DNA of 64,000 bases from Candidatus Pelagibacter communis. GTDB taxonomy: Bacteria; Pseudomonadota; Alphaproteobacteria; Pelagibacterales; Pelagibacteraceae. Where the stretch lies: positions 1 to 64,000 of the forward strand of contig NZ_CVST01000066.1 of NCBI RefSeq assembly GCF_001180225.1. The letters are read 5' to 3'. The translations under genes were made by a program, and so were the position numbers. This document shows, piece after piece, positions 15,507 to 42,110 of this stretch. The notes under the pieces are model-generated. The model did no database searches. It saw only the letters and a program-made list of their open reading frames with translations, and was not told the DNA's origin. Each line of letters starts with the position of its first letter. The stretch's first letter is position 1.

Positions 15507-15965
15507 TTAATTTCTTGCTATGTTTTTATTGTTTAGTTTATCTAATTCTATAACTTTTGGATTTTGTGCAGCATGAGGATGTTCACTTCCTGAATAAATT
15601 TTTAATTTTGTTAATTGTTTTCTACCCAAAACACCACCTGGCAACATTCTTTTAACTGCTAGCTTTAAAGTTTCTCCAGGTTTTTTTTCATGAAGTTTTT
15701 CTGGTGTGGTAACTTTAATTCCACCAGGATGTCCTGTGTGTCTATAGTACTTTTTGTTTTGAAATTTATTACCAGTAAATTTTGCTTGTTCGATATTTTT
15801 TACTACAACAAAATCTCCATCATCCATGTGAGGTGTATAAGTAGTCTTATTTTTGCCTCTAATAATATTAGATACAACAGTCGCTAATCTTCCAACAACT
15901 GCATTTTTTGCGTCTATCTCGTACCAAGATGATGTAACTTGATCTTTTTTTGTGAATTTTGTCAT
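15507..15965 (-). CDS. rplM: 50S ribosomal protein L13
   Basis: A 152-residue L13. Visible family segments are WYEIDAKNAVVGRLAT (residues 14-29), the YTPHMDDGDFVVVKN region, the KKYYRHTGHPGG loop and MLPGGVLGRKQLTKLKIY. It is first of the rplM-rpsI pair, with argC following; a sigma70-like promoter lies just upstream. The following spacer also contains the metY leader on the opposite strand. Confidence 0.98.
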   Translation of the reverse strand: MTKFTKKDQVTSSWYEIDAKNAVVGRLATVVSNIIRGKNKTTYTPHMDDGDFVVVKNIEQAKFTGNKFQNKKYYRHTGHPGGIKVTTPEKLHEKKPGETLKLAVKRMLPGGVLGRKQLTKLKIYSGSEHPHAAQNPKVIELDKLNNKNIARN

Positions 15966-15974
15966 TGTGCGTGG

Positions 15975-16003
15975 ATTAATACTATTAAATTATTCAAAGT
16001 CAA
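15975..16003 (-). promoter_or_regulatory. Predicted sigma70-type promoter of rplM-rpsI
   Basis: On the minus strand TTGACT (16003-15998) and ATTAAT (15980-15975) are separated by exactly 17 bases. The -10 box ends nine bases from the rplM start codon, which implies a very short or absent leader. The -35 is near consensus; the -10 is AT-only and weaker. Confidence 0.45.
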
Positions 16004-16045
16004 TTTTATATTTAGCTTGTAAAACATAACTAATATGCTATTTAT

Positions 16046-16095
16046 CACTTGCCGATTTGATCCTATTGCGGGCATAAAACTGCTAAAATGGAATT
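16046..16095 (+). promoter_or_regulatory. SAM-II riboswitch aptamer (first of a tandem)
   Basis: The segment follows the SAM-II pattern. A short P1 stem, TGCC (16050-16053) with GGCA (16071-16074), encloses the conserved GATTTGATCC...TATTGC loop. It is followed by the A-rich linker and the TGCTAAAATGG element, which forms the pseudoknot. SAM-II binds S-adenosylmethionine. It sits about 80 bases ahead of metY, too far to cover that gene's ribosome site directly. A 6-bp hairpin (AATTTT/AAAATT, 16092-16106) follows, but there is no T run after it, so an effect through termination is uncertain. Confidence 0.8.
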
Positions 16096-16112
16096 TTCAT
16101 AAAATTATAATC

Positions 16113-16171
16113 GGTAGGCATTTGAACTGTATTGTGCGCCTTGCATAAAGCAAAAGCACTAAAAAAGGAGT
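16113..16171 (+). promoter_or_regulatory. SAM-V riboswitch aptamer covering the metY ribosome-binding site
   Basis: P1 pairs AGGC (16116-16119) with GCCT (16138-16141) around the conserved ATTTGAACTGTATT loop. A small hairpin TTGC/GCAA (16141-16144 with 16150-16153) follows. GTGC (16134-16137) can pair with GCAC (16156-16159) as the pseudoknot, immediately before ACTAAAAAAGGAG. The Shine-Dalgarno GGAG (16167-16170) lies five bases before the metY ATG. Ligand binding should therefore block translation. SAM-V is known from SAR11 marine bacteria, including tandem SAM-II/SAM-V leaders at metY; here the two aptamers are 17 bases apart. Confidence 0.88.
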
Positions 16172-16175
16172 AAAA

Positions 16176-17504
16176 ATGAGTACAAAAAGAAATAATCCAG
16201 AAACTATTGCGATACATGGTGGAGATTACAGAAGTGATCCAGCCACAAATTCAGTAGCAGTTCCAATTTATAGAACAACCTCGTATCAATTTAATAACAC
16301 TGAACATGCAGCAAATTTATTTGCGTTAAAAGAGTTTGGAAATATCTATACACGAATAATGAATCCAACTAACGATGTGTTGGAAAAGAGAATCGCTGCT
16401 CTTGAAGGTGGTCTTGCAAGTTTAACTGTTGCTTCTGGTCAAACTGCTTCTACTTTTGCAATATTAAACGTTGCTCAAGCTGGAGACAATATTGTTAGTT
16501 CAACAGATCTTTATGGTGGAACAGTTTCTTTATTTACACATACTTTAAGTAAGCTTGGTATAGAAGTAAGATATGCAGATCCATCAGATCCAAAAAACTT
16601 TGAAAAAGCAATAGACGATAAAACTAGAGCTTTTTATGGAGAAACATTACCAAACCCATATTTAAGAGTTTTTCCAATTAAAGAAGTTTCAGATATTGGT
16701 AGAAAATATAACATTCCATTAATCTTGGATAACACTGCTGCCCCTGTAATTTGTAAACCAATTGAACATGGTGCTGCTGTGGTTGTTTATTCTTTAACAA
16801 AATATATAGCTGGTCATGGAACAGTAGTCGGAGGTGCACTAGTAGATGGTGGAAATTTTGATTGGACAGCAGATCCAAAAAGACAGCCACTATTTAATGA
16901 ACCTGATGCTAGTTATGGAGGTGTTGTTTGGGGTAAAGCTGTGCCCGAATTAACAGGTGCAAATGTTGCTTTTGCAGTAAGAGCGAGAGTAACCTTGTTA
17001 AGAGATTTAGGATCAGCACTTTCTCCGGATAATGCATTCGGTGTCATACAAGGACTTGAAACAGTTGCTTTAAGGATGAAACAACACTGTGATAACGCTG
17101 CAAAAGTGGTTGAGTACTTAAAAAATCATAAAGCAGTTAAGAGAGTTATTTACGCTACTGAACATAATGAAGAGATATCAAGTCGAGCAAAAAAATATCT
17201 TAAAAATGGTAATGGTGCTTTAGTTGGTATTGAATTATCTGGTGGTATAGAAGCTGGTAAAAAATTCATTGAGGCTTTAAAAATGTTTTACCACGTTGCA
17301 AATATAGGTGACGCTAGAAGTTTAGCAATACACCCAGCAACAACAACTCACAGTCAATTAAATGAGGATGAATTAGCTGCTTCAGGTGTAACCCCAGGAT
17401 ATGTTAGACTTTGTATTGGTTTAGAACATATTGATGATATCATTGATGATTTAGATCAAGCTTTAGACAAATCTTCAAAAGGTAATTTAAAAGCAGTTAG
17501 TTAA
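16176..17504 (+). CDS. metY: O-acetylhomoserine sulfhydrylase (PLP-dependent Cys/Met metabolism enzyme)
   Basis: A 442-residue enzyme of the trans-sulfuration PLP family. Key segments are YTRIMNPTNDVLEKRIAALEGG (58-79), VASGQTAS around residue 86, LDNT (174-177) and the PLP lysine K209 in YSLTKYIAGHGT. The long insert after the lysine loop and the total length fit MetY-type enzymes rather than the shorter MetB/MetC. It makes homocysteine (or methionine, with methanethiol) from O-acetylhomoserine. The riboswitch pair upstream puts it under SAM control, which supports a methionine role. It has one of the few strong Shine-Dalgarno sites in the window. Confidence 0.93.
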   Translation: MSTKRNNPETIAIHGGDYRSDPATNSVAVPIYRTTSYQFNNTEHAANLFALKEFGNIYTRIMNPTNDVLEKRIAALEGGLASLTVASGQTASTFAILNVAQAGDNIVSSTDLYGGTVSLFTHTLSKLGIEVRYADPSDPKNFEKAIDDKTRAFYGETLPNPYLRVFPIKEVSDIGRKYNIPLILDNTAAPVICKPIEHGAAVVVYSLTKYIAGHGTVVGGALVDGGNFDWTADPKRQPLFNEPDASYGGVVWGKAVPELTGANVAFAVRARVTLLRDLGSALSPDNAFGVIQGLETVALRMKQHCDNAAKVVEYLKNHKAVKRVIYATEHNEEISSRAKKYLKNGNGALVGIELSGGIEAGKKFIEALKMFYHVANIGDARSLAIHPATTTHSQLNEDELAASGVTPGYVRLCIGLEHIDDIIDDLDQALDKSSKGNLKAVS

Positions 17505-42018: not shown

Positions 42019-42110
42019 TGGCGGAGAGAGAGGGATTCGAACCCTCGGTACAAGTTTCCTCGCACGGTCATTTAGCAAACGACTGGTTTCAGCCTCTCAC
42101 CCATCTCTCC
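42019..42110 (-). tRNA. tRNA-Ser (anticodon GCT)
   Basis: Read on the minus strand, the acceptor stem GGAGAGA/TCTCTCC closes the molecule (42110-42104 with 42029-42023), with discriminator G and an encoded CCA at 42021-42019. The anticodon loop TTGCTAA carries GCT (42076-42074), between GTCGT/ATGAC arms. A long variable arm (CGAGGAAACTTGTACCG region) is the mark of a type II tRNA, and the T loop is TTCGAAT. It reads AGC and AGU codons. It lies between slt and the sarcosine oxidase operon, antisense to both. Confidence 0.96.

Follow-up and report, generated by a model that had tools for sequence, protein, structure and literature searches.

The closest described relatives of the leader analysed here are tandems in which a SAM-II aptamer is followed by a SAM-V aptamer. 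In the 120 tandems originally reported, SAM-II always precedes an intrinsic terminator, according to a review (PMC9481103), and in the bhmT tandem the linker blocks SAM-II, for a cause that the accessible text leaves open (PMC11508383). The bhmT SAM-II aptamer of HTCC1062 has a KD of 1.2 uM, as cited in PMC5069961, and three of the SAM-V positions of this genome fall within intergenic regions of metY, mmuM and bhmT tabulated in PMC2704228. A compact SAM-II in front of metY or mmuM is not described in the literature that was searched. The sequence-only reading from which this analysis started had called the tandem known from SAR11, which holds for the published bhmT type; there SAM-II precedes a terminator, which is present in 0 of 142 linkers here, and for HTCC1062 metY and mmuM the accessible parts of PMC2704228 and PMC5069961 give SAM-V alone.

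Two SAM aptamers in the metY leader

The window, which is the whole stretch of 64,000 nucleotides that was analysed, derives from a SAR11 contig in which rplM and metY are divergent and the leader that separates them holds two SAM aptamers (Table 1). A covariance search of the whole window placed the downstream aptamer in the SAM-V family RF01826 with a score above gathering (E 4.9e-13), and its pseudoknot covers the metY Shine-Dalgarno sequence, which ends five bases 5' of the ATG, as had been proposed from the sequence. The metY product matched TIGR01326, O-acetylhomoserine aminocarboxypropyltransferase, with 582.7 bits against a cut-off of 495.1. SAR11 bacteria are among the most abundant cell groups in the sea and need reduced sulfur, and the metY leader is therefore one of the main switches of SAR11 methionine supply. 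The same genome carries a second SAM-V before mmuM (L039, G000:C44:17489-17551), also with a compact SAM-II upstream, and the linker of this mmuM leader is complementary to SAM-II L1. Elsewhere in the window, two tRNA genes were found at 42022-42110 and 1680-1751.

Table 1. Positions of the metY leader features in the window.
Feature	Position	Strand	Basis
Probable metY promoter, TTGTAA (16017-16022) and TGCTATTTA (16036-16044), TG before second hexamer	16017-16044	+	Conservation
SAM-II P1, 5' strand GCC	16051-16053	+	Pairs with 16071-16073; 142, 141 and 141 of 142 leaders
Helix X, 5' strand GCCGATT, overlapping SAM-II P1 and L1	16051-16057	+	Pair probability 0.86-1.0
SAM-II loop L1, ligand-site strand GATTTGATCCTATTGC	16054-16069	+	Core GATTT..ATTGC in 134/134 parsed loci
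SAM-II P1, 3' strand GGC	16071-16073	+	Pairing across 142 leaders
SAM-II P2/P2a, 3' strand GCTAAAATGGA	16082-16092	+	P2a pairs in 142, 140 and 141 of 142 leaders
SAM-V aptamer (RF01826)	16107-16173	+	86.9 bits, gathering 41
Helix X, linker strand AATCGGT, directly 5' of SAM-V P1	16109-16115	+	TCGG conservation near linker end
SAM-V P1, 5' strand AGGC	16116-16119	+	Complementary to GCCT 16138-16141
Shine-Dalgarno AGGAG within SAM-V	16166-16170	+	Sequence
metY, O-acetylhomoserine (thiol)-lyase	16176-17504	+	TIGR01326

The upstream element is a 42 nt SAM-II-type sequence (16051-16092) with a P1 of 3-4 bp, in which GCC, the L1 loop and GGC are followed by the P2/P2a strand. Its sole Rfam SAM-II match was to RF01726 at 16045-16096, scoring 18.1 bits against a gathering value of 44 (E 0.62, 401-base search), while RF00521 gave no match at this aptamer up to E 10 and SAM-II was absent among the gathering-threshold matches of the whole-window covariance search. 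Covariance scores had been suggested as the check on both aptamers; SAM-V passed it and the upstream aptamer did not, a verdict that is invalid for SAM-II in SAR11 because the HTCC1062 bhmT SAM-II (1127457-1127532) itself scored 15.5 bits with RF00521 against a gathering value of 36. The HTCC1062 metX SAM-II reached 26.7 bits against the same 36, and a cmscan of the bhmT leader L168 returned no SAM-II up to E 10. Following this HTCC1062 calibration the Rfam score was rejected as a negative test, relatives of the leader were collected because the score cannot decide the matter in SAR11, and the upstream aptamer was named compact SAM-II-type, since it falls below gathering in a clade where that negative fails.

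Within the genus, 183 of 399 genomes had a SAM-V, and within the order 190 of 397. The loci that were compared came from the best-scoring matches of longer lists, so that weak SAM-V leaders are under-sampled, and among these best-scoring matches a compact SAM-II lay upstream of SAM-V in 134 of 145 metY and mmuM loci. Ten of the 11 unparsed loci lacked the core (five of them from other genera) and one was cut by a contig end; 29 further SAM-V loci, before bhmT or an unrecognised gene, served as controls only, and L028 was left out as it had no SAM-V match to the search pattern. Added mmuM loci brought the set to 142 distinct leaders, 106 of metY and 36 of mmuM (including L215, with a degenerate SAM-V), whose counts are not independent because the leaders are related; a tree of 27 MmuM fragments gave support too weak for counting independent events. 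MmuM was found in 194 of 399 genomes, and 110 of about 150 listed entries were fetched, of which 48 had the compact SAM-II in the stretch and 62 did not, contig-end cuts included; absences were not counted as losses because many genomes are incomplete. In HTCC1062 the metY (L166) and mmuM (L167) leaders both carry the compact SAM-II. Three mmuM leaders (L230, L246 and L366) had a compact SAM-II and no SAM-V was seen in them, and two metY leaders (L101 and L127) had a longer SAM-II with a different or degenerate terminator instead of the compact form. A phage origin was rejected, as viral contigs gave 0 exact matches to the SAM-II core. Genome contigs gave at least 120 matches, and of the 80 loci listed among them 78 were titled Pelagibacter, Pelagibacteraceae or Pelagibacterales; for these listed loci, occurrence outside SAR11 was also rejected, as the remaining two (Ignavibacteriae and Vibrio) had no other part of the motif and are probably chance matches.

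Comparison of the 142 distinct leaders showed changes on both sides of the helix in P1 (GC to AU, two leaders) and in P2a (UA to AU, three leaders). The four inner P2 pairs were kept in all 142 leaders, and GATTT, ATTGC and GCTAAA in 134 of 134 parsed loci, values to be read with a search pattern that itself required most of these letters; looser patterns allowing up to four errors recovered no additional leader with an altered SAM-II core. The core GAUUU..AUUGC..GCUAAA is that of SAM-II at large, and its letters presumably correspond to the ligand surroundings of the crystal structure. The element has the H-type pseudoknot of P1 and P2 and the conserved core, and stays below the Rfam gathering value. 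The kept pairs together with the both-side changes in P1 and P2a support a compact SAM-II-type pseudoknot under selection, as judged from the leaders compared, and we infer that it binds SAM. The RF01826 score and this comparison of SAM-II across relatives bear out the earlier claim of two SAM aptamers of distinct classes in one leader, and the upstream aptamer is, as also claimed, too distant to reach the metY Shine-Dalgarno sequence. That the upstream SAM-II is a relic, its complementarity to the linker being incidental, would fit Rfam scores under the cut-off, a P1 of only 3-4 bp and the broken P1 of L234, and it is improbable given that the core is kept, that both sides have changed in P1 and P2a and that the linker motif TCGG is restricted to leaders with the compact SAM-II.

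The metY mRNA probably starts near 16051, at the SAM-II P1 strand or one to two bases away from it. A plain sigma-70 consensus scan found no promoter, and in the 106 metY leaders a TTG at -34 to -32 and a TGnTA at -15 to -11 before GCC were conserved at 81-99% per position; by this pattern the start would fall at or beside the G of GCC. A U at 16050 was present in 86 of 106 metY leaders, in 51 of which it faces U and has no P1 partner, and this conserved base may belong to the start site and not to a helix. Upstream of the metY promoter, a conserved AAAGTCAATTTTATATTT block (15996-16013) could be the -35 region of the promoter of the divergent rplM, with TTGACT on the minus strand.

The linker and its complementarity to SAM-II

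The sequence-only reading had pointed to a 6-bp hairpin at 16092-16106, after SAM-II and without a T run. The missing T run was confirmed. A role of the hairpin as the working part was not supported: it can be drawn, its pairing probability is 0.08-0.12, and it is present in only 5 of 106 distinct metY linkers. As a terminator it was rejected, being neither conserved nor predicted to form, and a scan of 15940-16200 found no terminator-like site. No linker of metY (0 of 106) or mmuM (0 of 36) contained a hairpin of 5 bp or more with a T-rich stretch after it. It is hardly credible, then, that SAM-II ends transcription at a terminator while SAM-V controls translation, as in the published bi-mechanism tandem, which requires an intrinsic terminator after SAM-II (seen in 0 of 142 linkers); what speaks for this explanation is the known bhmT arrangement, where T6 lies downstream of the longer SAM-II reading GCTAAAGCG in 29 of 31 loci. 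In bhmT-type leaders, L168 among them, CGCTT[TC]AG in the terminator region can pair with GCTAAAGCG (27 of 31 loci).

The end of the metY linker, AAUCGGU, is complementary to the SAM-II strand GCCGAUU, and we refer to this pairing as helix X. It is this element that the linker conserves, and the sequence-only reading had passed over it. The conserved complementarity uses bases of SAM-II P1 and L1, and helix X and SAM-II exclude each other. When the best-pairing of six positions close to the end of the linker was taken, all seven standard pairs were present in 60 of the 106 distinct metY leaders, six of seven in 42 and five of seven in 4, in linkers that otherwise varied in sequence and in length (19-28 bases). 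TCGG occurred within the last 10 bases of 104 of 106 tandem metY linkers, and [TCA]AGG[CT] followed CGG or a variant in 104 of 106 metY leaders, which sets the complement flush with SAM-V P1. In SAM-V leaders lacking the compact SAM-II, TCGG was found within the last 8 bases in 0 of 32, a control set with many leaders from other genes or genera and including L145, which reads TCG across the SAM-V border. A 10-bp extension into SAM-V P1 (16048-16057 with 16109-16118) is kept only as a possibility, because the mRNA probably starts at about 16051 and the extra pairs hold in 85 (16050:16116), 74 and 39 of the 106 metY leaders.

Linkers of mmuM were less fixed than those of metY, and their changes keep much of the complementarity to SAM-II. 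AAUUGGU was found opposite GCC or ACC, with ACC and GGU together in L141 and L167; AAUUAGU stood opposite GCU in L144 and L234 (C-G to U-A), and L274 combined AAUUGGC with GCC opposite GGC. The complement GCUGAUU/AAUUAGU is kept in L234 even though the 3' strand of its SAM-II P1 is broken. The register of metY was mismatched in 28 of 36 mmuM leaders, and a shifted register against L1, found by eye and by duplex prediction, was seen with AUCAAAU, AUCAAUC and GAUCAAAU, the last in L230 and L270. Because both helix X strands are nearly invariant in metY, true covariation is scarce, and a both-side change in helix X was limited to one column (X3) in two mmuM leaders.

Controls were run with reversed and with shuffled linkers. 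In linker clusters below 75% identity, pairing was better for the own linker than for its reversed copy in all 16 metY clusters (Wilcoxon p 4e-4) and in all 7 mmuM clusters (p 0.016). Single-base shuffles gave p < 0.05 in 98% of 106 metY and 53% of 36 mmuM leaders; with dinucleotide-preserving shuffles of these short linkers, leaders taken one by one reached p < 0.05 in only 20% of 106 metY and 28% of 36 mmuM. Alternatively, UCGG could owe its conservation to SAM-V, to which it would belong, or to a role as a protein or DNA site, with the SAM-II match secondary, as might be expected of a motif that adjoins SAM-V P1 and is near-invariant in metY. This is very unlikely, as the motif is missing in all 32 SAM-V leaders without the compact SAM-II and mmuM linkers change yet stay largely complementary to SAM-II.

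Nested folding, which takes no account of pseudoknots, ligand or time, gave helix X in the full window leader a probability of 0.86-1.0 and SAM-II P1 a probability of 0. Helix X emerged between transcript ends 16112 and 16116, and it held at 0.80-1.0 for transcripts starting at 16049, 16050, 16051 or 16052. Folding gave at least four expected pairs joining the linker to the 5' side of SAM-II in 100 of 106 metY and 31 of 36 mmuM leaders, in comparison to 116 of 318 and 32 of 108 with shuffled and 55 of 106 and 9 of 36 with reversed linkers. For RNA starting at GCC, the same level was reached in 93 of 106 metY and 26 of 36 mmuM leaders (shuffled 146 of 530 and 44 of 180; reversed 50 of 106 and 7 of 36). 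Such folding cannot weigh helix X against SAM-II, because P1 reached only 0.01-0.07 even before the linker strand exists. We infer that helix X forms in cells.

Helix X could also mask SAM-II constantly, so that the pairing only extends and supports SAM-V P1 by stacking and SAM-V is the sole SAM sensor. This would match the accessible account of the bhmT tandem, in which the linker makes SAM-II of the full-length RNA unresponsive to SAM (PMC11508383), and it also suits a helix X that is flush with SAM-V P1, both of which were obtained together by nested folding of 16051-16145. Mere masking would not need the SAM-II pairs and core that are kept over 142 leaders, and some mmuM leaders (L230, L246, L248 and L366) keep the compact SAM-II without an intact SAM-V; the linker complement of these gave p 0.005 in L230, 0.44 in L246 and 0.68 in L248 against shuffles, with L366 judged by eye only. 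We consider constant masking unlikely.

A possible coupling of the two aptamers

Our preferred reading, to which we assign a probability of roughly 60%, is that the formation of helix X is decided by whether SAM occupies SAM-II while the RNA is being transcribed. The first seven bases of the mRNA, GCCGAUU, would have two alternative partners. With SAM they would close the compact SAM-II pseudoknot, and the aptamer would have time to fold and bind until the linker strand had been fully made, some 23 bases later; without SAM, the linker AAUCGGU would capture them, destroying SAM-II and forming helix X, which would then lie flush on SAM-V P1. SAM-II would in this way make a co-transcriptional decision on the state of both the mRNA 5' end and the RNA next to SAM-V, and SAM-V would afterwards close or open the ribosome site. 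With no terminator in the leader and a ribosome site that lies far from SAM-II, the aptamer would have to act through helix X, and the outlet may be mRNA survival, the ease of SAM-V folding, or both. More broadly, the leader may be a one-ligand tandem without a terminator whose aptamers are mechanically coupled through shared first mRNA bases, with SAM-II occupancy setting both the 5' end and the affinity of SAM-V, an extended proposal that we hold as possible at somewhat less than even odds. If true, coupled tandems would be widespread across Pelagibacter for metY and would occur in drifting registers for mmuM.

The direction in which helix X affects metY can be argued both ways, as its flush stacking suggests support of SAM-V and a coherent logic of repression suggests the ON state. 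One tentative guess, which we hold to be rather unlikely, is that helix X represents the low-SAM state and keeps the metY mRNA productive; stacking support of SAM-V P1 by helix X would give the opposite sign. Sulfur limitation of HTCC1062 raised metY mRNA 7.1-fold and MetY protein 2.2-fold, with mmuM and bhmT mRNA up 6.1-fold and 33.8-fold, respectively (PMC5069961). As the metY and mmuM leaders of this strain are terminator-free, the mRNA level therefore responds without a terminator, and SAM-V together with translation loss could alone explain the low-sulfur rise. For S. meliloti, a SAM-II pseudoknot with bound SAM reportedly makes the mRNA more stable (PMC9373788), an effect opposite to the low-SAM guess that speaks against a simple carry-over.

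Comparison with described SAM riboswitches

Within the literature searched, part of which was accessible in excerpt, the terminator-free SAM-II/SAM-V tandem is an addition to the described tandems, and HTCC1062 gains a compact SAM-II at two further genes, metY and mmuM. By analogy, the metY linker complement suggests a sequence reason for the SAM-II masking reported for bhmT (PMC11508383), where the complement on the SAM-II 3' side of bhmT-type leaders (27 of 31) is a possible cause. Linker complementarity to SAM-II may be a shared feature of SAR11 tandems that was reached in two ways.

The metY leader resembles the bhmT tandem of 'Ca. Pelagibacter ubique', as far as this is described in the accessible texts (PMC11508383, PMC9481103), in having SAM-II followed by SAM-V, the same ligand for both and a downstream sequence interfering with SAM-II. 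The bhmT tandem has a longer SAM-II with a terminator hairpin and its U tract downstream, whereas the SAM-II of the metY leader is compact, probably sits at the mRNA start and has no terminator, and its interfering element can pair with the SAM-II 5' side (P1/L1) and is flush with SAM-V. Like the Rfam SAM-II families RF00521 and RF01726, the upstream aptamer combines an H-type pseudoknot with the GAUUU..AUUGC..GCUAAA core; it differs from them in its P1 of 3-4 bp, its 42-nt length and a score below the Rfam cut-off. The second aptamer is an ordinary member of SAM-V (RF01826), for which the accessible text on the metY crystal structure 6FZ0 gives a P1 of four base pairs (PMC6061858), and only its upstream flank with the helix X strand is different. 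The SAM-II of S. meliloti metA, which acts at a distance, is comparable in lacking a plain terminator effect and in its effects on mRNA stability, and differs in that a second aptamer and a linker complement are not mentioned in the accessible part of that report (PMC9373788).
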